Shown here: positions 4,430 through 60,830 of the stretch, in pieces | Layout: every line of letters begins with the position of its first letter | Numbering within the stretch: position 1 is the stretch's first letter | Source of the DNA: a virus | IMG/VR virus record: IMGVR_UViG_3300042939_000736 | Location: 62,001 to 126,000 of that record | Direction: 5' to 3' (one strand) | Length of the DNA: 64,000 nt | Translations under genes and position numbers: made by a program | The notes under the pieces: model-generated | Seen by the model: only the letters and a program-made list of their open reading frames with translations | Database searches by the model: none | Told to the model about the DNA's origin: nothing

Positions 4430-4753
4430 AGATAGTATATACCAGTTACCTTCTACAAATTGAAATTGTACACAAGCCCCTTTTTCTAAAAGTAATTCAT
4501 CCCATTCTTCATCTATAGTCCCTACGTCAGATTTTACCAAAACTGTCGTAAGGGATTTTATTATAATTCTTTTTGTTAATTTAGAATTTAGTGTTACTTC
4601 ACAATTAGGTATACCTTTAACAATTAATAATGATTCATCATTGGTATGGTATTGATCTTTGGAAATTATTATTGCCTTTTCCTTTTCTTTAGAACTTTCA
4701 ACCAATGTTTGATATTTTATTATGTTTTTTCTTGTTGGTAAATTAGTCATCAT
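4406..4753 (-). CDS. Small protein of unknown function, possibly virion-associated
   Basis: A 115-residue protein I do not recognise. The second half is strand-rich, with regular hydrophobic alternation (KRIIIKSLTTVLVKSD) and a closing WYILSSDG motif that recalls short trimeric beta domains at the ends of phage fibres or decoration proteins. It starts with an ATGATGA overlap on the stop of the neck-protein gene (4750-5874), so the two are translationally coupled and probably both structural. The 3' end overlaps the DNA polymerase gene tail-to-tail by 24 nt, leaving no room for a separate terminator. The structural role is inferred from the operon only. Confidence 0.6.
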   Translation of the reverse strand: MMTNLPTRKNIIKYQTLVESSKEKEKAIIISKDQYHTNDESLLIVKGIPNCEVTLNSKLTKRIIIKSLTTVLVKSDVGTIDEEWDELLLEKGACVQFQFVEGNWYILSSDGLKMF

Positions 4754-5874
4754 ATAACGTATATTTGTCTTGGCATGGCACGAAACTTTAATGTTTTGTT
4801 AAGATTTTCAGCAATTAAAGCTTCTCTTTCCATAACTTTATCCGGCCTTAGTCTTGTTAATTTTCCTTCAGCGCCAATAAGTTCTTCAACTAATTTTACT
4901 TTTTCGTCCTTACCTTCAGTACCTAATGATTGCCATTCCATTGTTAAATCACCATCAGGTGTTTTAAGATTACCGCTAAACTTACCCCTAACTTTGGACA
5001 ATAATTCCTTAGCAGATGCAACCAACCATCTTCTTACCCAAATTTGTGCCGGATTATTTAAATCATTCCACGATAACTTTTCATATGGTACGTCAGATGG
5101 TAACTTGATAATATCGGGATTGTCTTTAAGACACTTATTTCTATCACCGTCTGTAGTGTCATAATACCAATACCAAACTTTTCCTTTCATCAAAGTTGAA
5201 TTACCAAAGTCAAATTTACCACCTGGTGTATTCATCAAATGAACGGCTTTTTTACCATCAGGAAGTGCAGTTACTCTATAGGTCAAATCACCAGCAATTA
5301 TTCTTCTTTGTATGTTTATTTCTTGCATTCTTAATAACATGTCGAATGCCGGCATCAAAAAGTAACTACCTGAAACGTTTCCTACTTGTGCATAACCAGC
5401 GGGTCCTGATATTCCACCTCCTGCTATACCACCAAAAGCCCATGGATCAAAAAGTAAGTTATTCATTTCAGGTGGTGTGAACCAGAGCAATTCATTTAAC
5501 TCTCTACCCGCAGGTATTTCATATATTTGTTGGCCCGCTTGTAACTGAATGTAGTCTTTTTTCATAACCCAATCACCACCAGCTTGTAAACCTACAATTT
5601 TAGAATACGCGTAAGTGTATCGTGTTTCATAATCTAAACTTTTGGTCATGAATGCCTTGGTTAAAGATTGGGTTTCGACGTTCAAACCCCAAAGACTTGT
5701 CCACTGACTTTCAGTTAACCAATCTTGTATATATTGTGAATAGTCTTCTATTGAAAATTCCAAAAGAGTGTCTAGTTGTTCATCTTCCAACTCAACCGAT
5801 CTTAAAGGTGCTCCTAAAATGTGTCTGACTCTTGTGTATAGTCTTTCTCTTTCTTCATTACTTATAATTGACAT
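4750..5874 (-). CDS. Neck / head-tail connector protein (T4 gp13-like)
   Basis: A 374-residue protein. The N-terminus is helical and acidic (EDEQLDTLLEFSIEDYSQYI, about residues 29-48), as in connector proteins that bind the portal; the middle contains a Gly/Ala-rich loop (WAFGGIAGGGISGPAG), and the C-terminal half is helical and charged. Length is somewhat larger than T4 gp13 (309). Assignment to the gp13-like neck family rests on this N-terminal pattern, the size and the co-occurrence of neck and tail-completion genes just to the right (10748-12301, opposite strand). The start ATG at 5874 lies 15 nt after a leftward TATTTATA element. Neck function is probable rather than proven. Confidence 0.6.
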   Translation of the reverse strand: MSIISNEERERLYTRVRHILGAPLRSVELEDEQLDTLLEFSIEDYSQYIQDWLTESQWTSLWGLNVETQSLTKAFMTKSLDYETRYTYAYSKIVGLQAGGDWVMKKDYIQLQAGQQIYEIPAGRELNELLWFTPPEMNNLLFDPWAFGGIAGGGISGPAGYAQVGNVSGSYFLMPAFDMLLRMQEINIQRRIIAGDLTYRVTALPDGKKAVHLMNTPGGKFDFGNSTLMKGKVWYWYYDTTDGDRNKCLKDNPDIIKLPSDVPYEKLSWNDLNNPAQIWVRRWLVASAKELLSKVRGKFSGNLKTPDGDLTMEWQSLGTEGKDEKVKLVEELIGAEGKLTRLRPDKVMEREALIAENLNKTLKFRAMPRQIYVI

Positions 5875-5901: not shown

Positions 5902-8034
5902 TTATTGGGTAATAAGTTGATCAAGATTTTTTTTATAAAATTTAATAATTTCATTAATATTTTCAGATTGACCTAATTCACGTAGTTTATTTTTGTAGTA
6001 ATCTATTCTTTCTTTGTAATATTCAATTTCTTTATCCACATCCCTCACCAATTTAGGTTTTGATTCAGATTTAGTAGGTTCTAAAATTACATCTAATGAA
6101 AGGTTTGTACTTATAGGATTTTCATAATAAATGACAAAAAACTTAGGAAACGTAGATGGATTTGCAACAGTTTGTATTCTTGTGTAGTCATTTCTGAACA
6201 TAATGTATTTTTCATTAGGTCTGTCCACATATAATATAACGTCAACATTATCTTCTTTATATTTTGTGTGGTTATGCCAAGAAGGTACTTTGTAATAATA
6301 ACCTCTTTCAGACCCAATTTTTTCGACCTTACTAACGTCAACTGGTTTTACTTGAACAAAGTATGAAGTGTTTTCAATTATCAAATCGAAGTCTTGACCA
6401 AGTTTTCTATCTCTTATATCACCAGCACATCTTTCTTTAATTTGCCAAGTCATACCTTCTTCTTGTGGGTTAAGTTTGAAAGATTGTATTAAAACTGATT
6501 TGGCATAGTTTTCATTTTCCCTACCATCTATTATAGTTTGGCTATTCAAATTTACTAACCGTTCAGTAAATCTCCCATCGTTACCAACAAGGTCATCAAT
6601 ATTATTCATAATCCAAATCCTAAAATTTTCCAAACCATCAGTTTCTTCGACCCATATTTTTTGGATTTCTTTGTGTACCGCACTGTTAGTGTCAAATCTA
6701 TTTATAATAGACCAATTTCCTAAACCACCATAATTTTCTTCTGTAAATCTACCACCTATTATTCCATCTTCAGTTTGACATTCATCAGTTTGTATTTTAC
6801 CTAAACAACCATTCGGATGAAACTCACCTTCACAAAAAGGATATGCTTTATTTATAATAAGCCTAAAGGATTTTGGTTTGATTGGAAAAACTTCTTTACT
6901 TTCATTTAAAACTTTTTTACGAACTGTAGATTCTTTTAAAGTTTTTTTTTCAATTTTTTTCTTATACAGATCGTTAACAAAGTCCCAATTTACGTGGTTC
7001 CAAAATTTTTTGATATAATCATCTTTTTTGTTTTGGTATTTCAAATAGTACGCGTGTTCCCAAAGATCTAATCCTAAAAGCGGATAACCACCATCTTTAA
7101 CAATATTCATTAATGGGTTGTCTTGATTTGGTGTGGACAATATTTTTAATTTTTTGTTCTTTCCTATCACTAACCAAACCCATCCAGATCCAAATCGTTT
7201 TTTTGCTTCTTCATTAAATTGGTCCTTCATTTTTTTTACATTACCAAAATCTTCGGTAATCTTATTGAAGATTTCATCTTTTGGTATTTGTTTTTTTGGT
7301 GACAACATTTTCCAAAATAAAGCGTGGTTAAAGGCTCCCCCTGCGTTATTTCTTACCGAGTCGTCAAATTTATTTATAGATATTATTATATCTTCTAAAT
7401 CCATTTCCCCTTCTTTATTTTTTAACGCATCATTAAGTTTTTTTACATATCCTTTATAATGTTTATTATAATGTATGTTCATAGTCTTAGGATCTACAAA
7501 CTGTTTCATTGCGGAATATGAATACGGGAGTTTTTCTATACCAATTTTTTTCATTTCCAAAATGAAGTTTTCTTGGATGTTGAATTTATCTTGAATAAGA
7601 ATCTTTTCTTCCAATAATTGAATTTTGTCTTGGATTGGTTTCAATCCTTCAAAAATAATATTTTCTAAATCAGGATTTTCTTTTTCAAAAGTTTTAATAA
7701 GTGAACCTGCCAAAGAATTGGCTTCGTCTTCGTTTTGACCACCAATATCAGGTCCTCTTTTTCTACCTAAAACATTTCTTTGATGACTATGAACCCATTC
7801 GTGTGCTAATGTTCTAAGAATATCTCTGTTCATTCTATTATTTACTAAAATTTTGATTCCCTTTTCTTTGTGTTGACTTCCTGTGGTCATTCTACCTTCA
7901 CGTTGTCCCAACAGATGAATTACTAAGTCATCTTTTAGTGGATACTCTTTTTGTAAAAACTTACAAAAAGTTTTAAGTAGATCTTTTTCTTGCTTGCTTA
8001 TGTCTGAATTTATATTTTTGAAAGTAACGTTCAT
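5902..8034 (-). CDS. Three-domain fusion: zincin-like peptidase, Fe/Mn superoxide dismutase, PD-(D/E)XK-like nuclease
   Basis: A 710-residue protein with three distinct parts. Residues 1-130 hold a zincin signature, TLAHEWVH (H78, E79, H82), in a small metallopeptidase-like domain. Residues about 165-360 are a complete Fe/Mn superoxide dismutase: LPYSYSAMKQF start, ligands H188 (MNIH), H237 (NHALFW), D323 and H327 (DLWEHAYY), gatekeeper-type Tyr at 196, and the GSGWVWLV strand. All four metal ligands are kept, so dismutation of superoxide is likely. Residues about 380-655 have a Cys-bearing segment (FCEGEFHPNGC, then DECQTEDG) and a QDFDLII...FVQVKP core (D548/D550, Q561, K563) like PD-(D/E)XK nucleases with Q in place of E. 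The C-terminus is a charged coiled coil. Each domain is recognisable alone; the joint function is unknown. A LNES site between domains 2 and 3 could be a processing site. Preceded by a TATTTAT element and an upstream terminator, so probably its own unit. Confidence 0.85.
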   Translation of the reverse strand: MNVTFKNINSDISKQEKDLLKTFCKFLQKEYPLKDDLVIHLLGQREGRMTTGSQHKEKGIKILVNNRMNRDILRTLAHEWVHSHQRNVLGRKRGPDIGGQNEDEANSLAGSLIKTFEKENPDLENIIFEGLKPIQDKIQLLEEKILIQDKFNIQENFILEMKKIGIEKLPYSYSAMKQFVDPKTMNIHYNKHYKGYVKKLNDALKNKEGEMDLEDIIISINKFDDSVRNNAGGAFNHALFWKMLSPKKQIPKDEIFNKITEDFGNVKKMKDQFNEEAKKRFGSGWVWLVIGKNKKLKILSTPNQDNPLMNIVKDGGYPLLGLDLWEHAYYLKYQNKKDDYIKKFWNHVNWDFVNDLYKKKIEKKTLKESTVRKKVLNESKEVFPIKPKSFRLIINKAYPFCEGEFHPNGCLGKIQTDECQTEDGIIGGRFTEENYGGLGNWSIINRFDTNSAVHKEIQKIWVEETDGLENFRIWIMNNIDDLVGNDGRFTERLVNLNSQTIIDGRENENYAKSVLIQSFKLNPQEEGMTWQIKERCAGDIRDRKLGQDFDLIIENTSYFVQVKPVDVSKVEKIGSERGYYYKVPSWHNHTKYKEDNVDVILYVDRPNEKYIMFRNDYTRIQTVANPSTFPKFFVIYYENPISTNLSLDVILEPTKSESKPKLVRDVDKEIEYYKERIDYYKNKLRELGQSENINEIIKFYKKNLDQLITQ

Positions 8035-8039
8035 TGAAA

Positions 8040-8046
8040 ATAAATA
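8040..8046 (-). promoter_or_regulatory. Putative late promoter core, leftward
   Basis: The minus strand reads GATATTTATTTT, with the TATTTAT core 5 nt before the ATG at 8034. This is the shortest spacing in the window; the mRNA would be almost leaderless. Confidence 0.45.
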
Positions 8047-8590: not shown

Positions 8591-8893
8591 TTAATATCTG
8601 TATCTACTTCTAAACCTTCTTGATTCATTCATATCCCCTATTTTTTCCATGGGATTTTCAAGTGGTTCATCTGATTGTTGAGATAACTTCTCAAACAATT
8701 TTACAAATTCAGGAGCTGGTAATGTTTTGAAAGCTTCAGTCGAACATTTTTGGAAATCTAATCTAGCAGGATCACATCCAGGTATGTTACTATGTGTCTT
8801 TAGAAGCTCCACATCCGCAGCAAGATTTATTTCTTCTTCTTTTAAAATTCTTCGAAGAACGTTTTCTATTCTTTTTTCACTATATCTGTTCAT
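8591..8893 (-). CDS. Small hypothetical protein with RILKEEE N-terminal helix
   Basis: A 100-residue protein I do not recognise. The N-terminal 25 residues form an amphipathic helix with the segment VLRRILKEEE. A similar (I/L)-(I/L)-K-E segment opens the HAD protein at 15983-16882 and recalls the short N-terminal peptides by which some T4 internal proteins enter the prohead before cleavage at L/I-x-E sites. Two Cys residues lie mid-protein, and the C-terminus is Arg/Tyr-rich (RRFRSRYRY), fitting nucleic-acid contact. The gene has its own TATTTATA element and a strong terminator. A packaged internal head protein is a possible reading, not a demonstrated one. Confidence 0.6.
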   Translation of the reverse strand: MNRYSEKRIENVLRRILKEEEINLAADVELLKTHSNIPGCDPARLDFQKCSTEAFKTLPAPEFVKLFEKLSQQSDEPLENPMEKIGDMNESRRFRSRYRY

Positions 8894-12586: not shown

Positions 12587-15500
12587 ATGGCAACTAACAG
12601 TAAAATTTTCGTTTCACCTGGTGTCTATACTTCTGAAGTAGATTTAAGTTTTGTGGCACAAAGCGTTGGTGTTACAACTTTAGGTATTGTCGGAGAAACA
12701 CTTAAAGGTCCGGCCTTCGAACCTATTTTTATTAAAAACTATGATGAGTTCCAATCTTACTTTGGTCCTACTTCACCTGAAAAATTTGTAAATACTCAAA
12801 TTCCTAAATATGAAGCGGCATACATCGCCAAATCATATTTACAACAATCTAATCAATTATTTGTAACTAGAGTTTTAGGTTTATCGGGATATGATGCGGG
12901 TCCTTCTTGGTCAATAATTACAAGCGCAAACTTAGATCCTTCCACTTTGGCACCTTATTGTTTGAGTTCAGTAACAATAGATTGTCAGGATGTTTGTGTG
13001 TCAGCTAAGACATTACCTTTTCAAGTGGCATTTACAGGTTGTACTAACTCACCAAGTTCTGTTTCTTTCGGAGCCTTTCCTGCAGAAATAGAAGCGTTGT
13101 TAACATCACAATACGAACAGTTCAACGGTAATACTTCGACTTTATTAGAAGATTTACAGTTTTTTACATATCAAAGAATTTTAAATCCTCTTTCTCAAAA
13201 TACATCTATTGCTTACTTCGGTACTATTGATGGTGATGATTATGACATGTTGTCAAGTGGATATACAGCTTCTACAAATGTGTTTAATGTACCATCACCT
13301 TCTAGTAACTTAACAAACTTCTTATCACCATTTAATGATACTTGGTACTATGCTTTGTTTGAAAACACAGGAAATAGTAATTATTCGGGTTATTCATTTT
13401 GGTCTGTTGTTTCAGGGTTAACATCAATTAATCCAATAACTACAACTACAATTCCTCCAACAACTACGTCAACGACTACAAATCCTTGTATAACACCAAC
13501 ACCTGTGGTTCCTACTACAACAACTACTACTACTGTTGTTGATTGTTACTCAGGAACAGTTATAGGTATGATATATTATTATACCGGTAATTCATACACT
13601 CTTTATGATGACATGGTTATTGCAACACTAAGATCAAGAGGTATTGCGGATTACAGCGATGACGTGAACCCAAGATATGAAATAACTGGTTTGACTGATG
13701 TTACAATGGATTGTTCAGGTCAATATTCGGGCGTATTAAAAAATCCATTTGCTAAATTTGCAATAAATGCGACTAACTACTTAGGTAACAACTTTACTTT
13801 TGTTACGTCGTTCGCAAATTCGGATTCAGAATATCTTACAAAAGTATTCGGAACAAGTAACTTTGGTAAACCAAGAAATGTGGTACCACTTTTTGTGGAA
13901 GAAAGATTCCAATCACTTTTAAGATGGGCGTATAACAAAGGTTACATACGAGGTTTAAAATGTGGTTTAATATCATTACCTGAAGCACAAAGCGAAGATC
14001 CAACATCAATTGCTTGGTACTTAGAAAAGTATCAATCACCTGAAAGTCCATGGGTTGTTTCTGAAGTTAGAGGTTCCAAAGTTTATAACTTATTTAAATT
14101 TTACACAATTTCTGACGGGAACAGTGCCAACACAGAAGTTAAAATATCTATATCTGATATATCTTTCGCAAATGAAACATTTACAGTTTTAATTCGTGAT
14201 TACTACGATACAGATTCAAATCCTGTTGTGTTAGAAAAATTCACAAACTGTACTATGAATCCAAGCGAAAATAGTTTTATAGCCAAAAAAATTGGTACTT
14301 TGGACGGTGAGTTTGAATTGAAATCAAGATATGTAATGGTTGAAATGAATGAAGACGCACCAATAGATTCATTACCTTGTGGATTTGAAGGATATAATTT
14401 CAGAGAATATGCAGGAGCAAAATCACCATTCCCTATAATTAAAACTAAATATGATTACCCAGGTGAGTTAGTTTTCAATCCACCTTTTGGTACACCATCA
14501 GGTACAGACGATGCTGGATTATCATCAGGTGATAATATAAGAAAAACTTTCTTAGGGTTTTCTACAAGTGCCGATTACGGTTATGACCCAAGTTTCTTCG
14601 AATATAAAGGTAAAAGAAATCCTTCAAACATATGTTTTGCAACTGAATCATCTCCTTGGTTATATAGAACTAAAGGGTTCCACATGGACAAAAACGCAAG
14701 TGGTATTACAATTGCTAACGTTTTTGCAACAAGTGGCACTCCTCGTTTCTACGTAGGTGATGCGTCTTTCAGTTCTGAACCTACTGTTGAAACAAACCCT
14801 TACTACCGTTTATTTGCTCGTAAATTTACTTTACTTGTACAAGGTGGATTCGATGGTTGGGATATCTACAGAGAAAGAAGAACAAACGCAGATAAATACC
14901 AATTAGGTAGAACTGGTTACTTAAATGGGGCTTGTGCAACAACAAGATACCCTTCAGCAGTTGGTTGGGGAGCGTTTAAACAAATTACTGTTGGTGACGG
15001 TACAAGAGAATACGCAAACACTGACTATTACGCTTACTTACTTGGTATCAGAACTTTTGCTAATCCTGAAGCGGTTAATATAAATGTATTTGTTACACCA
15101 GGAATTGACTATGTTAACAACAGTGACTTAGTAGAAGATACAATAGATATGATAGAAAACGAAAGAGCGGATTCTTTGTATATAACAACTACACCTGACT
15201 ACAATTTGTTATTACCTACCACAACTGGTGTAGATGGTTTGATTTATCCACAAGAAGCGGTTGATAATCTTGATGGTACAGGAATCGATTCTAACTATAC
15301 CGCCACTTACTATCCGTGGGTGTTAACAAGAGATAGTGTAAATAACACACAAATTTATCTACCACCAACGGCTGAAGTAACCAGAAATTTAGCATTAACA
15401 GACAACATTGCGTTTCCTTGGTTTGCTGCGGCGGGTTATACTCGTGGTATTGTAAACGCTATCAAAGCTCGTAAGAAGTTGACTCAAGAAGACAGAGATG

Positions 15501-15910
15501 TTCTTTATCTTGGTAGAATCAACCCTATTGCTACATTCTCAGATGTGGGTACAGTAATATGGGGTAATAAAACCCTACAAGTAAGACAGTCAGCACTTGA
15601 TAGAATAAACGTTCGAAGATTATTGTTACAAGCACGTAAGTTAATTTCGGCAGTTTCAGTAAGATTATTGTTTGATCAGAACGATGAAAAAGTAAGACAA
15701 GATTTCCTAAATGCGGTAAATCCAATATTAGATGGTATCAGAAGGGATAGGGGTCTTTATGACTTTAGAGTTACCGTATCAAATGACACGGCTGATCTAG
15801 ATAGAAATCAGATGACTGGTAAGATATATATCAAACCAACAAGATCACTAGAATTTATAGATATTACATTCTACATTACACCAACAGGTGCTTCTTTCGA
15901 AGATGTATGA
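12587..15910 (+). CDS. 18: Tail sheath protein (T4 gp18-like) with Thr-rich insertion
   Basis: A 1107-residue contractile sheath subunit, much longer than T4 gp18 (659). The N-terminus has the sheath signature FVSPGVYTSEVDLS, followed by the first domain (GIVGETLKGPAF). The C-terminal domain is typical: AFPWFAAAGYTRGIV, then INPIATFSDVGTVIWGNKTL and RRLLLQARKLI. The extra length is an insertion in the middle. Residues about 283-318 are a striking low-complexity stretch: two poly-Thr runs around a short Pro/Cys segment (ITTTTIPPTTTSTTTNPC, then VPTTTTTTTVVDC), which would be exposed on the outside of the tail and flanked by Cys residues. It has its own promoter element and a strong terminator. 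Confidence 0.95.
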   Translation: MATNSKIFVSPGVYTSEVDLSFVAQSVGVTTLGIVGETLKGPAFEPIFIKNYDEFQSYFGPTSPEKFVNTQIPKYEAAYIAKSYLQQSNQLFVTRVLGLSGYDAGPSWSIITSANLDPSTLAPYCLSSVTIDCQDVCVSAKTLPFQVAFTGCTNSPSSVSFGAFPAEIEALLTSQYEQFNGNTSTLLEDLQFFTYQRILNPLSQNTSIAYFGTIDGDDYDMLSSGYTASTNVFNVPSPSSNLTNFLSPFNDTWYYALFENTGNSNYSGYSFWSVVSGLTSINPITTTTIPPTTTSTTTNPCITPTPVVPTTTTTTTVVDCYSGTVIGMIYYYTGNSYTLYDDMVIATLRSRGIADYSDDVNPRYEITGLTDVTMDCSGQYSGVLKNPFAKFAINATNYLGNNFTFVTSFANSDSEYLTKVFGTSNFGKPRNVVPLFVEERFQSLLRWAYNKGYIRGLKCGLISLPEAQSEDPTSIAWYLEKYQSPESPWVVSEVRGSKVYNLFKFYTISDGNSANTEVKISISDISFANETFTVLIRDYYDTDSNPVVLEKFTNCTMNPSENSFIAKKIGTLDGEFELKSRYVMVEMNEDAPIDSLPCGFEGYNFREYAGAKSPFPIIKTKYDYPGELVFNPPFGTPSGTDDAGLSSGDNIRKTFLGFSTSADYGYDPSFFEYKGKRNPSNICFATESSPWLYRTKGFHMDKNASGITIANVFATSGTPRFYVGDASFSSEPTVETNPYYRLFARKFTLLVQGGFDGWDIYRERRTNADKYQLGRTGYLNGACATTRYPSAVGWGAFKQITVGDGTREYANTDYYAYLLGIRTFANPEAVNINVFVTPGIDYVNNSDLVEDTIDMIENERADSLYITTTPDYNLLLPTTTGVDGLIYPQEAVDNLDGTGIDSNYTATYYPWVLTRDSVNNTQIYLPPTAEVTRNLALTDNIAFPWFAAAGYTRGIVNAIKARKKLTQEDRDVLYLGRINPIATFSDVGTVIWGNKTLQVRQSALDRINVRRLLLQARKLISAVSVRLLFDQNDEKVRQDFLNAVNPILDGIRRDRGLYDFRVTVSNDTADLDRNQMTGKIYIKPTRSLEFIDITFYITPTGASFEDV

Positions 15911-15982: not shown

Positions 15983-16882
15983 ATGAATTACTACAAATTT
16001 TTAGTTAAAAAAATTATTAAGGAAGTTGTTGAAGAAAACCCATCTTATGCAATGAAGTACTACGCTTTTGATTGGGATGATAATTTAATGAAAATGCCAA
16101 CTTTAATTTATTTGAAAGATGAAGATGGTGACGTAATAGGAATGAACACCGAAGATTTTGCTGAGTATCGTACTTTAGTTGGTAGTCAACCTTTTGATTA
16201 CGAAGGTCACATGATAGTTGGTTTTGATGAAAGTCCATTTAGGGATTTCAATGTAACTGGTGATCGTAAGTTTTTAGAAGATATAAAATATGCCCCTATA
16301 GCATCCGAAAAAGTGTGGAATGATTTTGTTGAAGCGATAAATAGTGGATCTGTTTTTGCAATTATAACAGCAAGGGGTCATTCACCAGCAGCGTTAAAAA
16401 AGGCTGTCAAATATATAATAGAAAACAATATGCATGGTGTAGAAAAAGGACAACTTGTTAAACACCTTAAAGAATATCGTCGTATTGCCGGCCTAAAACA
16501 AATAGAAAATGAAAATTGGTTAATTAATGATTATTTAGATAGATGTCAATTTTCACCCGTTTCACACGGTAAGGGGTCTGCTGCGAACCCTGAAGAAGAA
16601 AAATATAACGAATTATTAAGATTTTATAATAGAATGACTAGATCATCCAAAAAATTTCAAAAATCACAATTTATAAATCACGTAAATACTGGAAGTGAGT
16701 CAATTGGTGGTGGATTGTTTAAATTTAAAAAACCTTCATTTGGTTTTTCAGATGATGATGAAAGAAATGTTAAATCAATTAAGAAAAGATTTTCAGATAT
16801 AGGAAAAGATTTAAATATTTATTATACTAAAGGAGGAGAAAAACAACTATATGAAAACCGGTCTAGTAGAAGAATATTTTAA
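15983..16882 (+). CDS. HAD-like phosphatase
   Basis: A 299-residue hydrolase of the HAD superfamily. Motif I is AFDWDDNL with nucleophile D30 and D32; motif II is IITARGHSP (T129); motif IV is FGFSDDDERN near residue 250-260. A Lys for motif III lies among several in between (for example HLKEYRRI). The N-terminal 18 residues (KFLVKKIIKEVVEE) are an amphipathic helix outside the HAD fold, resembling that of the small protein at 8591-8893. The gene sits alone between the sheath and tube genes, with terminator before and promoter elements on each side, so it is likely made late with virion proteins. Substrate unknown; nucleotide or phosphoprotein phosphatase activity is possible. Confidence 0.8.
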   Translation: MNYYKFLVKKIIKEVVEENPSYAMKYYAFDWDDNLMKMPTLIYLKDEDGDVIGMNTEDFAEYRTLVGSQPFDYEGHMIVGFDESPFRDFNVTGDRKFLEDIKYAPIASEKVWNDFVEAINSGSVFAIITARGHSPAALKKAVKYIIENNMHGVEKGQLVKHLKEYRRIAGLKQIENENWLINDYLDRCQFSPVSHGKGSAANPEEEKYNELLRFYNRMTRSSKKFQKSQFINHVNTGSESIGGGLFKFKKPSFGFSDDDERNVKSIKKRFSDIGKDLNIYYTKGGEKQLYENRSSRRIF

Positions 16883-55800: not shown

Positions 55801-55861
55801 TGTTACCCAAAATTTTGAAATAAATGTTGGGATAAACTTTAATTTACTTTGTATTCAATGA
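52859..55861 (+). CDS. Large baseplate protein with gpI-like domain
   Basis: A 1000-residue protein. The region FKSKGTRRSIEILLRLVG (about residues 451-468) and the helices before it (LLKNLAETLGWKTN, KNLILNAAYLF) match the pattern of P2 gpI-type tail proteins, in which a HKGT-like turn and helix bind the baseplate wedge. The remaining regions are beta-rich with aromatic loops, and a Cys-rich part (PCKPCSLIGQLFAVDC) lies near residue 850. Expected to join fibres to the wedge. It overlaps the next gene by 4 nt (ATGA). Confidence 0.65.
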   Translation: MAVIKYKWPPQTDTGASTFSDDLVGVQLVAGGGLTNANFEFTTGLTEKQNRKFNIGAFSSPISLDDLDLKSVEESKVLIAKNLQVYPNFDLSQITNFTLFGSLTKRISTSISRIINYFPAGIESLSQNLNFQTGLTAVNMYYDKVLDETYLELPLNRIRNPFDIDFTTTATRNFELSEIEVSPLRNLTVEYLNYSIFVNSSEYNVIFLDPVDDTDTVLKLYVTGNPFSGLSATTSDIVLRPNTFYTEKSFNDFFDEVEKFLLNRLILPIYTATFQVPQENDDGTYSTVNQTISWPLDGSWNLDIRTNDFDKYLTTLNTICENLDSYNTNLISRFLTTGALKEFDTSDRKIEKVLQIYGRSFDEVRKFVMSLANMTSVNYNTGNDIPSQLLKNLAETLGWKTNISPISNEGLLDSIFGTNQESNFPGYSRALTPDEINYQFYKNLILNAAYLFKSKGTRRSIEILLRLVGAPEALIDFNEYIYIADEKINLSQFDKQYLNISSGLYVQQTPVLDPTDIFSIMGVQYTGFTLQTTVSGVSTTRLDYPMDNQGYPTAPQENDGYFFQIGGGWFESTPDHHMPEQVVPTNQVFVGQNPNYQTVLLPFNYGQIYLDRYRKFPFMSVGYGLNKTIDNKKSWTIDNVGLRKSSDGGFNAYYRVYDERYVVNVKNVDVFLNPAQGLAYDVWSMSRRYNYPIPNEGLDYVEPTYCNPNPNGPYPNRGGIDWTEINPKPKQKTFFEFAQTFWKNMINVRNRQFITDGKTGGYPTLQSIYWKYLESNQTINIPNDNFTYRTMIDYVNGLGDYWIKLVGQMIPATTLLTSGVRLENSIFHRQKFVWRRQMGCQIIPVPCKPCSLIGQLFAVDCPIQSATCPVYPWGSNPLITSFAVVLNQLLQNKGLVQPNCDPNTLESTWYVDLVLNGDLLSHYEFFTGYGNTSPTASYPSNTVWLSALQSALSNLQSEGLDYVINSDDTVTIYNSNCIPLSVTQNFEINVGINFNLLCIQ

Positions 55862-58620
55862 GTTGTGGTTCAATAAATATATTCAATTATTCAATTACGG
55901 GAGACTGTGAAAACACAGGATCTGGAGGTGTATCCTTTTCAATAAATGGGGGATCTCCAAACTATACAGTAACTGAATATTCATCAACAGGATTATTACC
56001 TACATCGGCAGATACCACATCATATTTTTTTGTAGGTCTTACCGCAGGAACGTATGTTATTGAAATAGTTGACAGTTGTTTAGAAGAACCACTTATTTCA
56101 CAATTTGTAGAATTCACTATTTCTTCGGGAAGTTGTATTTCTATCCAAAGTCAGGGAACAACGTGTGGACTAAACAATGGTTCTATAACGGCATCGACAA
56201 CTAATATATATGGAACAGGATATTATTATTTATATGAAATTAATGATGGATACATAACAAGTGGTACCAACTTTAGTAATATTTTTAATAACCTGACACC
56301 TGGTTTTTATTATGTTATTGGAGATGATGGTGGTGGATGTACCGGTCGTAGTGAAACTTGTCTAATAAAAGAAACAAACTCGTTGGACTTTGGTTTATAT
56401 ATCGTAAATGATGCTAGTTGTGTGCCAATAGATGGAACCGGAAAAATATTTGTAACAGGTACAACAGGAACTCCACCTTATACATACAATTGGACACCGA
56501 ATGTTGGACCCCAAACAGGTCCAATTGTTACTGGTCTTACCGCAGGAACCTATTCTGTAACAGTAACCGATAATTTGGGATGCTCAAAAACACAAAGTGT
56601 TTTGTTGACAGATGTGCCAAATTTAGGTATTGCCGCTATGTTAACAACAAGTCAACCATCTTGTTTTTCAAATGACGGAGTGGTTGATGTTATTGTTTCT
56701 GGTGGAACAGCACCTTATTATTTTTCAGGATCAAACGGAGAAGTTGTTATACAATATAGTAATACATATACCTTTACGGGACTATCAAATGGTGTCTTCA
56801 CAATTTCAGTCACAGACGCGGGTCTTTGTAATGTAACATCATCAGTTTCCTTGATTACACCAAATGGTTTCATTGTAACATCTATGGTTGTTACAAATTC
56901 GAATTGTAATCAAACCGATGGCTCAGTTCATATTGAACTCAATAATGGTCTGGCTCCAGGTAACTATCAGTACACACTCTATGATTATAATAGTAATCAA
57001 ACAGTTATAACCACAACTTCTATTTGTGATTTTACCGGATTAGAAAGTGGAAGCTATACAATAACAATACAAGATGTACCCAACAATTCAGGATGTATTT
57101 ATACAGGTTATTTTTCTGTTGTAAATCAAAATAAGTTCGAAATAAGTGTAAGTAATACTGACACAACTTGTGGATTGAATAATGGTGTTGCAATTATTAC
57201 CGCAACCACAGGAGGAACATTACCTCTAAACTATACATTGTCGGGTGGTACACCTGTTACGACTACAACACAATTAACGAACGTATTTAACAATCTAAGT
57301 CCTGGTTTTTATCAAATAACAGTAACAGATTCTGCGGTACCATCATGTTCACAAACTGAATTATTTTATGTTGCTCCGTCACAGAACGTTAATATAAATT
57401 TAATTGGTGTCCCACCAGTAATAGGTAATGATGGTGAAATATTCCTTAATATTACAAGTGGTAATCCTCCATTTACAATTACGTGGAGTCCAAATGTTGG
57501 ATCACAAACAGGACTACATTTAACAGGTTTGTCAAATGGTAGTTATAGTGTTTTGGTTACAGATAGTGACGGATGTATTTCATCGGACATAATATCATTA
57601 CAAGGCACTGAATTAGTTACAACTTACGCGTCTTTTAATTTGTGTACCGATGATTTCATAGACACAAAAACATATGGAAAAAGAGGAGTTCTTCAAATGA
57701 TGAACGAAGGATTTTTCGATCTTACAACAGGTGATACTGGTTGTGAAATAGTAGAAGCCTACTTTACAACCCAAGTCGAAATTGATGGTGTTGTAAAAGA
57801 AGATTTATTTTTAACTTACACGGGAACACCTTTTCCACAATACGCAGACATTTTATGGATAGAAAGTCTTAGAACCACACTTAAAGAATTTGACGAAGTA
57901 GGAGATGTGATTATTGATTTGGCAACAAATAAAATAACTATAACAAACAAATGTAACACAAAAATAAAGGACTGTGATATTGTAACTTTTAACGACTTTA
58001 GTGATACTAATGTCAAAATAAATTTGTTGGTTGAATATCTAATAAATTGTCAAACTTGTGGTAAAGCGCCTGATTGTATAGGATTCTATGCTGATATGTC
58101 AATTGTAAGTGGTGATTGTAGTGGTTTCAGTGCAAATATGAATTTAGTGGGACCAACACCAACACCGTCAGTAACACCAACACCAACAATTACTCCTACA
58201 CCTACAATCACACCTACAGTAACTCCGACAATTACACCAACACCTACTATACCAGCAACTGGTTGTACCTGTTTCATATTAGAATCAAACGCCGATCTGG
58301 CGATTTTTGAATATACTAAATGTGGGGAGTCTACACCAAGTACAATTCCTATTTTGTTTGGTACGGGATACACTTGTTCATCAACTACCCCTATTTTAAT
58401 TAGTGGTATGGGATCGGTATTGGGTTCATCGGGTTCATGTATAGTTTATGAATGGGAAATCACCTTTAGCGGTGGTGGATCATACACTACATATAATTGT
58501 GGTTCATCAAATGAAACTTCCGTTTTAAGTGGAGGTACTTTCACGGTTTGTTCGACTATAACACCAACAAGTTCATCACCAAATTTTGTGTCAGCAGTAA
58601 ATATTGGAATATGTCCTTAA
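55858..58620 (+). CDS. Adhesin-like protein with SprB-type repeats and a Thr/Pro tract
   Basis: A 920-residue protein starting at the ATGA overlap (55858). It consists of about six to seven Ig-like modules with the pattern GGTPPYTxxW...TGLxAGTYxVTVTDxxGC (for example GTPPYTYNWTPNVG, LTAGTYSVTVTDNLGC, SNGSYSVLVTDSDGC). This is the SprB-repeat signature, which I know from gliding adhesins of Bacteroidota. Regular Cys pairs may lock the modules. Residues about 764-800 are a mucin-like tract of Thr and Pro (TPTPTITPTPTITP). The C-terminal 100 residues form a Cys-bearing domain. No signal peptide; it is a particle component, probably receptor binding. Its repeats may mimic or come from host adhesins. 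Confidence 0.78.
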   Translation: MSCGSINIFNYSITGDCENTGSGGVSFSINGGSPNYTVTEYSSTGLLPTSADTTSYFFVGLTAGTYVIEIVDSCLEEPLISQFVEFTISSGSCISIQSQGTTCGLNNGSITASTTNIYGTGYYYLYEINDGYITSGTNFSNIFNNLTPGFYYVIGDDGGGCTGRSETCLIKETNSLDFGLYIVNDASCVPIDGTGKIFVTGTTGTPPYTYNWTPNVGPQTGPIVTGLTAGTYSVTVTDNLGCSKTQSVLLTDVPNLGIAAMLTTSQPSCFSNDGVVDVIVSGGTAPYYFSGSNGEVVIQYSNTYTFTGLSNGVFTISVTDAGLCNVTSSVSLITPNGFIVTSMVVTNSNCNQTDGSVHIELNNGLAPGNYQYTLYDYNSNQTVITTTSICDFTGLESGSYTITIQDVPNNSGCIYTGYFSVVNQNKFEISVSNTDTTCGLNNGVAIITATTGGTLPLNYTLSGGTPVTTTTQLTNVFNNLSPGFYQITVTDSAVPSCSQTELFYVAPSQNVNINLIGVPPVIGNDGEIFLNITSGNPPFTITWSPNVGSQTGLHLTGLSNGSYSVLVTDSDGCISSDIISLQGTELVTTYASFNLCTDDFIDTKTYGKRGVLQMMNEGFFDLTTGDTGCEIVEAYFTTQVEIDGVVKEDLFLTYTGTPFPQYADILWIESLRTTLKEFDEVGDVIIDLATNKITITNKCNTKIKDCDIVTFNDFSDTNVKINLLVEYLINCQTCGKAPDCIGFYADMSIVSGDCSGFSANMNLVGPTPTPSVTPTPTITPTPTITPTVTPTITPTPTIPATGCTCFILESNADLAIFEYTKCGESTPSTIPILFGTGYTCSSTTPILISGMGSVLGSSGSCIVYEWEITFSGGGSYTTYNCGSSNETSVLSGGTFTVCSTITPTSSSPNFVSAVNIGICP

Positions 58621-58649: not shown

Positions 58650-60830
58650 ATGGCACTTCAAGTAACAATTACAAATATAAATTCAGTAACATACCCTGTT
58701 GATGTATATGTTTGTACAGATTGTCCAGATACAAGTTGTACTTTAGTTGACACAATTTTTTCTGTACCATCAACAATAAACATACCCGCACCCTATAGCG
58801 GTTCATCTTCTTTTTCTGTTAGAATTGTAGATAGTGCCAATTGTGAATATTGTCAAACTTTTGGAAATACAACAACAACTACAACAACCATAAATCCATT
58901 GTGTTTAAGTTGTGATATTGGTTTTGATTTTTACGATACTAACCCAATATCCGAAATTTCAGTTGGAGAAGTTACAGGAAGTTGTGATACAAATATTACT
59001 GATTACGTTATAAATTGGTATGGACCGGGTATTGGAAGTAGTACAGTTGCGTTTACTTCGGGTATAGGTAATTCATATAGTGGTGACTATACATATACAC
59101 ATCCGCTTACAGGATCATCGTCAGTTCCTGTTGTTGCAGGAGTCTACACACCAATAATACAAAAAATCAAATTGAATGGTATTGAGTACACGGACTTAAA
59201 TTGTTTCCAATCAACTACAGTTGATGTTGATGCATTAACATGTATTAATGGACCTGGAACTAATTTGCCACAATATTCCCATTTGTTAAGTTTTAGTGCT
59301 GTTACAAATTTGAATCCACCACCGGTAAATGTGACTTACGCATTGGATCCTTTGAAACCATATTTTGCAATTAGATTCGATACTGAATTAGTTTATGACA
59401 GTTTGAAAATTACATTGAATGCTGCGGCATATACAGACCCAATTATTTTAGAATATTTTACCGCGGGTCAGTCTTTAGGTGGATCAGATCTTAATTTAAA
59501 TACAACACCAAAAAAATTCCAACATTCCTTTAGTCTACCATTTGTGGCGAAAGTACTTACACTAACAGGGTTTACAATAAATACTGGTGATTATATTGAT
59601 ATAGAAGTTACCCCCAACCCAACAAACAATAACACAAATTGGAAACTTTATTGTGAATGTTTAGAAAATTTTGATTGTTCTTTGTGTGACGACACAAATA
59701 ACACAACACCATTTAAAATAATTGAATCTTCTATAACCCAAGGTGCTGCCAGCCCATGTGACATTATAAGTATGACTTTCCAAGTAAGTGCTTGTACATC
59801 AAGTGATTTTTTAAGATATATGTTAAATACTGGTGGTACTTTTTCTAATATTAATTATATTGATAATTTTTACCAAGGTATAGTGACCCAATATTTCACA
59901 AATATGAGCTCCACACCTCAGATTCAGTGTGTAAATGGTGGGTACTACTTAACGCCACAATGTGATACACCAAGCAATTCTACAATTACTTATAGCAAAA
60001 ATGTACCAGGAGCCGAAGGACAGATAACCATGACCTTCACTGATTTTACAGATTTTCAAGTATATAATAATGGATGGAATAACTTACTTTTTAGTTATTC
60101 GGGGAATCCTACAGATTGTACCGATATTGAATACTACAGATATTTTTGGTTAACAATCCCACTAGCAAGTGGAAATGATAATTGTGGTGACACTACAGGT
60201 TACGAAACTTATTTTATTCACCCATCATCAACATTCACAACTGGTGGAACAGGTCCATGGACAATAACAATTGATATGGCTACCATAACTGACTGTATTA
60301 CATTTACTAGTTGTGATCTAAATTGTAATACTGAAGTTTTGACAACTTTAAGTAATGTAAATAATTCATCAACAGGAACAACTAATAATATTTCAATAAC
60401 TTCAAACACAGGATCAAGATTAGTAACTCCGTGGCATTCCGTAACACTTATAGATTCAGGGTCAACCACTTTTTCATCAAGTACAGTTACAAACCAAATG
60501 TGGATACCAAAATATATTAATGAAACAGTACCTTACTCTGGAAATCCTCTCACCATAATTCCTAATCTTTCAGGGAAGACATGCGATTTCAATAATTGGA
60601 CATATAATTCTGCAAATCCATCAATTAACAACGGTTTTTATGTGCAATTCGGGTTTTGGTACGAAGTTAGAAGGACAAACCCATTGAATGTTGCGGATTT
60701 CGAAATATGGACAACAAATTTAACAAATGGAACATATACTGGTTATCCTGGTCAACCTACCGCATTATTTAAAATATATGAATTTGTAGGTGGGGTTCCT
60801 AATGTGATTGATCCAAACTTTTTTGTTTAA
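58650..60830 (+). CDS. Tail fibre / adhesin-like protein with poly-Thr linker
   Basis: A 726-residue protein. The first 70 residues form a small beta domain (VDVYVCTDC...CTLVDTIF) that is paralogous to the whole protein at 60832-61140. A poly-Thr run of seven residues (about 72-78) follows, then a Cys-spaced region (LCLSCDIGFDF) and large beta domains. The layout of anchor domain, Thr linker and exposed beta part fits a fibre in which the linker gives flexibility or carries sugars. No recognised enzymatic motif. No TATTTAT core precedes it; it may be read through from upstream genes. Confidence 0.65.
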   Translation: MALQVTITNINSVTYPVDVYVCTDCPDTSCTLVDTIFSVPSTINIPAPYSGSSSFSVRIVDSANCEYCQTFGNTTTTTTTINPLCLSCDIGFDFYDTNPISEISVGEVTGSCDTNITDYVINWYGPGIGSSTVAFTSGIGNSYSGDYTYTHPLTGSSSVPVVAGVYTPIIQKIKLNGIEYTDLNCFQSTTVDVDALTCINGPGTNLPQYSHLLSFSAVTNLNPPPVNVTYALDPLKPYFAIRFDTELVYDSLKITLNAAAYTDPIILEYFTAGQSLGGSDLNLNTTPKKFQHSFSLPFVAKVLTLTGFTINTGDYIDIEVTPNPTNNNTNWKLYCECLENFDCSLCDDTNNTTPFKIIESSITQGAASPCDIISMTFQVSACTSSDFLRYMLNTGGTFSNINYIDNFYQGIVTQYFTNMSSTPQIQCVNGGYYLTPQCDTPSNSTITYSKNVPGAEGQITMTFTDFTDFQVYNNGWNNLLFSYSGNPTDCTDIEYYRYFWLTIPLASGNDNCGDTTGYETYFIHPSSTFTTGGTGPWTITIDMATITDCITFTSCDLNCNTEVLTTLSNVNNSSTGTTNNISITSNTGSRLVTPWHSVTLIDSGSTTFSSSTVTNQMWIPKYINETVPYSGNPLTIIPNLSGKTCDFNNWTYNSANPSINNGFYVQFGFWYEVRRTNPLNVADFEIWTTNLTNGTYTGYPGQPTALFKIYEFVGGVPNVIDPNFFV

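Follow-up and report, generated by a model that had tools for sequence, protein, structure and literature searches.

A single gene of the window (the whole stretch of 64,000 nucleotides of viral DNA analysed here) joins three domains in one chain of 710 aa: a zincin-like domain, a superoxide dismutase (SOD) that is Mn-type by signature, and a predicted PD-(D/E)xK-type nuclease fold (5902..8034, minus strand; ATG start, no internal stop). We consider it fairly probable that this protein is a late cargo polyprotein, which would be packed in the phage head, cut there by the S77 prohead protease and injected; its packaging, cutting, injection, activities and targets are parts of this reading that we infer. 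The preliminary description of this DNA, which gave no strand, had proposed a three-part protein in one frame. The frame is intact, and the window's source record (a virus record of 290,710 bases) holds one open frame for the same 710-aa protein. When viral contigs were scanned, a check already suggested in that description, 117 relatives were recovered and the architecture recurred. The full-length protein is present in other contigs at 100, 99, 75, 73, 65, 58 and 54% identity, and in dozens of distinct contigs of freshwater T4-like phages the fusion sits at one and the same locus.

The N-terminal part (residues 1-130; 7645..8034, minus strand) is zincin-like by sequence and a candidate peptidase. 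It contains the HExxH motif HEWVH (residues 78-82; 7789..7803, minus strand), and H78, E79, H82, the acidic residues E102/E104 downstream, which are candidates for the further ligand, and the EDEAN segment are all invariant among relatives. By profile comparison the same domain is found in proteins of cyanophages S-SRM01 (QPX48222, E 3e-15) and B23 (gp332, E 3e-12), which, unlike the fusion, are stand-alone hypothetical proteins of 124-132 aa. The B23 protein (L229:2827-3201) starts with MNYKQFLRES, which we take to resemble a T4-type capsid-targeting sequence; in two stretches of B23 outside its head genes no other protein had a start of this kind. Pfam yielded no characterised peptidase family above the cut-off, only sub-threshold matches to DUF6055, SprT-like, M91 and M76, and we therefore use the term zincin-like and name no family. 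A sequence-profile search of the zincin alignment against the PDB gave no match, and Foldseek with the model of the whole chain returned only SODs among the matches listed, with no structural match for a zincin fold. Thus, of the zincin-like part in the preliminary description, the invariant motif stands, whereas an assignment to a named peptidase family was not reached.

The middle part (residues 161-365; 6940..7554, minus strand) is by sequence a complete SOD. Both Pfam domains of the Fe/Mn family were recognised (Sod_Fe_N, 1.2e-20, residues 167-245; Sod_Fe_C, 1.5e-39, residues 252-355), and the best solved relative is the Sphingobacterium MnSOD 6gsc (E 2.2e-62). The complete set of four metal ligands that had been reported earlier (H188, H237, D323 and H327) was confirmed and is invariant across 33 aligned relatives, as are H192, Y196, Q304 and W325, other active-site residues of Mn-SODs. 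The domain also carries NNAGG and PNQDNP, which from general knowledge of the family we take to be Mn-type signatures. In the AlphaFold model of the full chain the SOD was modelled poorly (pLDDT ~55), a consequence of the shallow alignment. In the bacterial genomes that were scanned, only plain SODs turned up, with the closest in Sphingobacterium, Fluviicola and Parapedobacter; these plain Bacteroidota enzymes, the closest cellular SODs, are ~47% identical to the phage domain. Stand-alone Fe/Mn SODs of other phages (Vibrio phage 2.275.O, the Pseudomonas PA5oct group, freshwater phage MW462191) belong to the same SOD family but are SOD only, 25-37% identical, with no zincin or nuclease. Two points of the preliminary description are to be qualified: the SOD here bears the Mn-type signature, and SOD genes, said there to be rare in phages, are documented in freshwater phages, where they were interpreted as protection against oxidative stress (PMC6802176).

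The C-terminal part, which we call C1 (residues 379-710; 5905..6900, minus strand), is a candidate nuclease with a predicted PD-(D/E)xK-type fold. In 23 relatives E508, D542, D548, Q561 and K563 vary little or not at all. AlphaFold modelled C1 alone with a pLDDT of 89, and in the core fold of this model E, D and (D/E/Q)xK are placed as in the PD-(D/E)xK superfamily. The top Foldseek match was the PD-(D/E)xK homing endonuclease I-Ssp6803I (E 1.7e-3, probability 1.00); the resolvases Hjc and RecU ranked after it, with some unrelated low-probability matches interspersed. The nuclease-like C-terminus that had been read from the sequence alone is thus borne out by structure prediction, and D548, Q561 and K563 of its core are invariant in the 23 relatives. 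C1 has the core fold and the E-D-QxK pattern in common with I-Ssp6803I and Hjc/RecU, but it is more than twice as long and has a Cys-bearing N-terminal part, and the overall TM-score by query is low (0.22). A sequence-profile search of the C1 alignment against the PDB gave no match. Among viral models, one match of C1 is named PD(D/E)XK endonuclease, and the second match is a 501-aa protein of an uncultured Caudovirales phage (A0A6J5L953), known here by its database name 'superoxide dismutase'; since the model predicted for it has a match to the nuclease fold of C1, it is probably a SOD + C1-type protein.

The three domains are separated by two linkers, each of which may serve as a cleavage element. 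The zincin-SOD linker (residues 131-160; 7555..7644, minus strand) ends in FILE before M161, and the SOD-nuclease linker (residues 366-378; 6901..6939, minus strand) runs from LKES to VLNE, so that LNES (residues 376-379; 6898..6909, minus strand) is a putative prohead-protease site with the cut after E378. [LIV]xE stands immediately N-terminal to the SOD start in all 51 dereplicated relatives, and [LI]xE[SNDTKA] follows just after the SOD in 41 of 43 fused members (shuffled mean 12, maximum 22); these counts were dereplicated, yet related sequences are not independent, and we regard them as strong without attaching a formal probability. In ~33,000 aa surveyed, the gp68-like core and scaffold proteins have 7.3 copies of the motif [LI][NST]E[SA] per 1000 aa compared to 0.19 elsewhere (~38-fold). 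The six other sites are in the capsid protein, in the head gene after it (two), at LNES itself, in a 374-aa neighbour of the fusion and in one glycosyltransferase-like protein. The site in the capsid protein, FLINE|ATSE, lies at about the place where T4 gp23, which loses an N-terminal 65-residue region, is trimmed, and from this position it may be the capsid maturation site. [LI]NES shows no enrichment when only the window is counted, as expected of a stretch made up largely of tail genes; the contrast emerges when the head region is included. The concentration in head-core proteins thus gives independent support to the cut at LNES that the preliminary description had guessed: the site is present and, as far as sequence can tell, the joint motif is conserved. 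The gene behind the capsid gene (L082:11206-12282; G000:15205-16281) has tag-like elements of its own, an internal KINEA and a C-terminal VRITESHLVLLIKNILKEL. Several points argue against packaging and cutting: the residue after the pre-SOD Glu is nearly always Met, unlike the S/A of the head-core sites; the 22 distinct unfused zincin-SOD forms mostly have no post-SOD site; and LxE triplets arise easily in helical linkers.

A TATTTAT motif precedes the gene (8040..8046, minus strand), and it is found shortly upstream of the start codon in 21 of the 21 relatives listed. The same leader stands before 17 of 25 virion-type genes (terminase, core, protease, scaffold, sheath, tail) compared to 2 of 16 replication and sugar genes, the two classes having been sorted by hand. 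Judged from this distribution, TATTTAT is presumably a late promoter element. The phage also encodes an S77 prohead protease and a gp23-family capsid protein. A bS21 gene (L082:5440-5625; G000:9439-9624, minus strand; Pfam S21, E 1e-6) lies inside the head cluster, on the reverse strand among the terminase, portal, protease and capsid genes, which places the phage with the freshwater bS21 phages of Bacteroidetes (PMC9723584). In those phages bS21 and structural genes are co-expressed late, and superoxide is not mentioned in the main text of that paper (PMC9723584). The carrier is best read as a T4-like jumbo phage of freshwater Bacteroidota. Its tail sheath and fibre-like proteins have long Thr-rich or TPTPT-type insertions (window 12587-15910, 55858-58620 and 58650-60830).

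In one relative (L194, L195) the chain is divided at the same locus into two adjacent genes. The first starts with MKYIENKIQLIENSILMESAKKSLIEEA before the SOD and ends in a nuclease-like module, C4, and the second starts with MKYIFTESQLDILKNKILINED before the C1 nuclease; in alignment, the start of the first corresponds to the linkers between zincin and SOD in fused relatives. Tag-like N-terminal starts occur in the separate genes of L194 and also in L227, and N-terminal tags are found on small neighbouring genes and on a stand-alone C1 gene. Within the first twelve residues of a protein such tags are ~10-fold commoner than further inside, and the recurrent tag is possibly the capsid-targeting sequence of this phage group. 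In the window, a neighbouring 100-aa gene (8591..8893, minus strand) starts with the tag MNRYSEKRIENVLRRILKEEE and has the TATTTAT leader motif as well; small orphan proteins with the recurrent tag, of the type MKKTIRLTESDLARIVRRVIREE or MNRYSEKRIENVLRRILKEEE, include this one and those at L043:5014-5334, L156:30-614 and L227:1090-1425. At residue 1 of the 710-aa protein itself no targeting tag could be recognised. A generic tag pattern showed no excess in the surveyed proteins (7 compared to 8.0 in shuffles), and with a position-specific score derived from the N-terminal tags the fused SOD-C1 linkers did not score above shuffled proteins. That the fused SOD-C1 linker may be a tag of this kind is suggested by the split gene and by position, not by the score. 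A 299-aa protein encoded elsewhere in the window (15983-16882, plus strand) has a tag-like start (MNYYKFLVKKIIKEVVEEN), a TATTTAT leader and an AFDWDDNL motif that looks HAD-like by eye; Pfam gave no match for it, and it is possibly another packaged enzyme.

In the mechanism that we propose, the chain would be made late and would enter the prohead core during head assembly. The S77 prohead protease would then cut after the Glu of the (L/I)xE motifs in the linkers, yielding a zincin-like protein of ~15 kDa, a Mn-SOD of ~23 kDa and a nuclease-like protein of ~38 kDa. The separated proteins would remain with the DNA in the mature head and be injected together; the SOD would clear superoxide from the surroundings of the incoming genome, while the zincin-like and nuclease-like parts may act on host or competitor targets. 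We favour this reading because of the conserved (L/I)xE joints and the same motif in the prohead-core proteins and the capsid site, because of the S77 protease, the gp23-family capsid protein and the leader common to virion genes, and because of the split relative with its tag-like starts, the N-terminal tags and precedents in T4 and in chlorovirus PBCV-1. Could the protein instead be an uncut multidomain enzyme? It would act late in the cytoplasm, its SOD would shield DNA and proteins from the superoxide of the dying host during assembly, the other domains would be tethered to it, and LxE would be no more than a helical linker. The late-type leader, the missing N-terminal tag, the unfused zincin-SOD members without a post-SOD site and the interpretation of freshwater phage SODs as protection against oxidative stress (PMC6802176) all fit such an enzyme. 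However, the LxE motifs are constant within otherwise variable linkers, in this phage hardly any [LI][NST]E[SA] lies outside the head-core proteins, and both pieces of the split relative have tag-like starts; we consider the uncut enzyme unlikely.

The zincin-SOD pair is the constant core of the family, and the nuclease is optional and swapped. All zincin relatives complete enough to judge have the SOD, and the two exceptions are incomplete or frame-broken. The SOD is followed by C1 in 30 distinct complete members, by nothing in 22, by C2 in 14, by C3 in 11, by a small repeated module in six and by the repeat plus C1 in four; forms without the zincin are SOD-C1 (three, one in a frame-broken contig) and SOD-C4 (one). 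By hhalign C1, C2 and C3 are mutually unrelated, and C4 is a remote relative of C1 (E 5e-6). For C2, C3 and the small repeat, Pfam and PHROGs yielded no useful match, and these three are not recognisable nucleases. The three-part architecture is present here, as had been described, but across the family it is the zincin-SOD pair alone that stays the same. The exchange of the last module may reflect an arms race over its target. One relative of 958 aa (L030:2308-5184) has two copies of a ~130-aa module between SOD and nuclease, with INES before each, and single-module genes with IITES starts adjoin it.

The C-terminal nucleases could also be mobile, homing-type endonuclease genes that inserted behind zincin-SOD and hitch-hike there, in which case the fusion would have no joint function. 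That the top fold match is a homing endonuclease, I-Ssp6803I, and that modules are swapped or absent at one and the same place would agree with this. On the other hand, purifying selection on the nuclease equals that on the other domains (dN/dS between L003 and L004 of 0.115 for the zincin, 0.109 for the SOD and 0.12 for the nuclease, with 0.36 for the zincin-SOD linker; all three domains are under purifying selection). Furthermore, unrelated modules keep the same joint motif, L194 has C1 and a related nuclease in tandem, and C2, C3 and the repeat module cannot be recognised as nucleases, and we regard hitch-hiking as improbable.

The order of genes at the locus is constant: a SNF2 helicase gene, optional small genes, the fusion gene, a 374-aa gene, a 115-aa gene and then, on the other strand, a B-family DNA polymerase gene. 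The 374-aa gene (4750..5874, minus strand) is always next downstream and is taken as a neck protein by position; a Pfam search with it gave no match. This fixed place and the virion-gene leader would suit a protein with a structural or assembly role in the head-neck region whose enzyme domains are mere relics, but the SOD active site is complete and invariant, the zinc-site residues are invariant and close relatives can miss whole domains, which makes such a role very improbable. Finally, an assembly or frameshift artefact uniting separate genes, the outcome that would have undone the preliminary description and to which the separate nuclease gene in L194 and L195 and a broken frame in one contig might point, is refuted by the full frame kept under purifying selection across dozens of independent contigs. 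In the contig with the broken frame (L161:3574-5145; L199 is the same contig) the zincin-SOD frame is interrupted within the SOD, by a sequencing error or a real frameshift.

Several known systems resemble the one proposed here. T4 trims its internal proteins and Alt with gp21 and injects them, and one internal protein is a defence inhibitor (PMC9958956, PMC3012670, PMC7411985). Compared to T4 IPI-III, Alt and gp21, the phage here likewise has a T4-like head, an S77 protease and a gp23-family capsid protein, and the putative cargo would likewise pair short elements cut after Glu with a diverse payload behind a conserved element. In T4, however, each cargo gene encodes one protein with an N-terminal tag, whereas here three domains, including a SOD, share one chain with sites between the domains and presumed packaging. 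With the S77 protease and gp23-type capsid protein found and no N-terminal capsid-targeting sequence recognised, we say that the chain may work like a T4-type internal head protein, not that it is one. The ejection proteins of the giant phages SPN3US and phiKZ are also inner-head proteins of jumbo phages that are cut C-terminal to Glu by a prohead protease and injected, but the motif there is AxE or SxE instead of LxE/IxE, and propeptides are removed there whereas enzymes would be separated here. A packaged viral SOD has a precedent in the Cu/Zn SOD (A245R) of chlorovirus PBCV-1, the product of a late gene (PMC7019647); packaging is a presumption in our case, and A245R differs in that its SOD fold and metal are unrelated, its virus infects algae and it is not fused.

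Neither the fusion nor the tag was described in the literature searched. The preliminary statement that no fusion of SOD, peptidase and nuclease is known holds for that literature, but UniProt contains, without remark, a SOD-named protein with a similar extra fold (A0A6J5L953); the fusion is not missing from databases but has not been described. Taken singly, phage SODs, head cargo and PD-(D/E)xK folds are nothing new, and it is their union on one modular chain with presumed protease joints that was not found in the literature searched. Tentatively, we extend the proposal to a system of modular cargo polyproteins, which is possible but less secure than the case of this one protein: jumbo phages of Bacteroidota may string several injected enzymes, among them a peptidase-like one, a SOD and interchangeable modules of nuclease or unknown type, on one late chain, from which the prohead protease would free them as intravirion enzymes.

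If the proposal is true, this would be a SOD of a tailed phage delivered inside the head, and the chain would be a phage polyprotein whose head-maturation protease frees several cargo enzymes. The phage would arrive with its own antioxidant and host-attack kit. This raises a testable question: Is there an oxidative burst at infection in aerobic freshwater bacteria that an injected enzyme pre-empts? As the last module is exchangeable, new injected effectors may be found behind the conserved SOD joint, and the tags may help to predict from sequence which proteins uncultured phages carry in the head.
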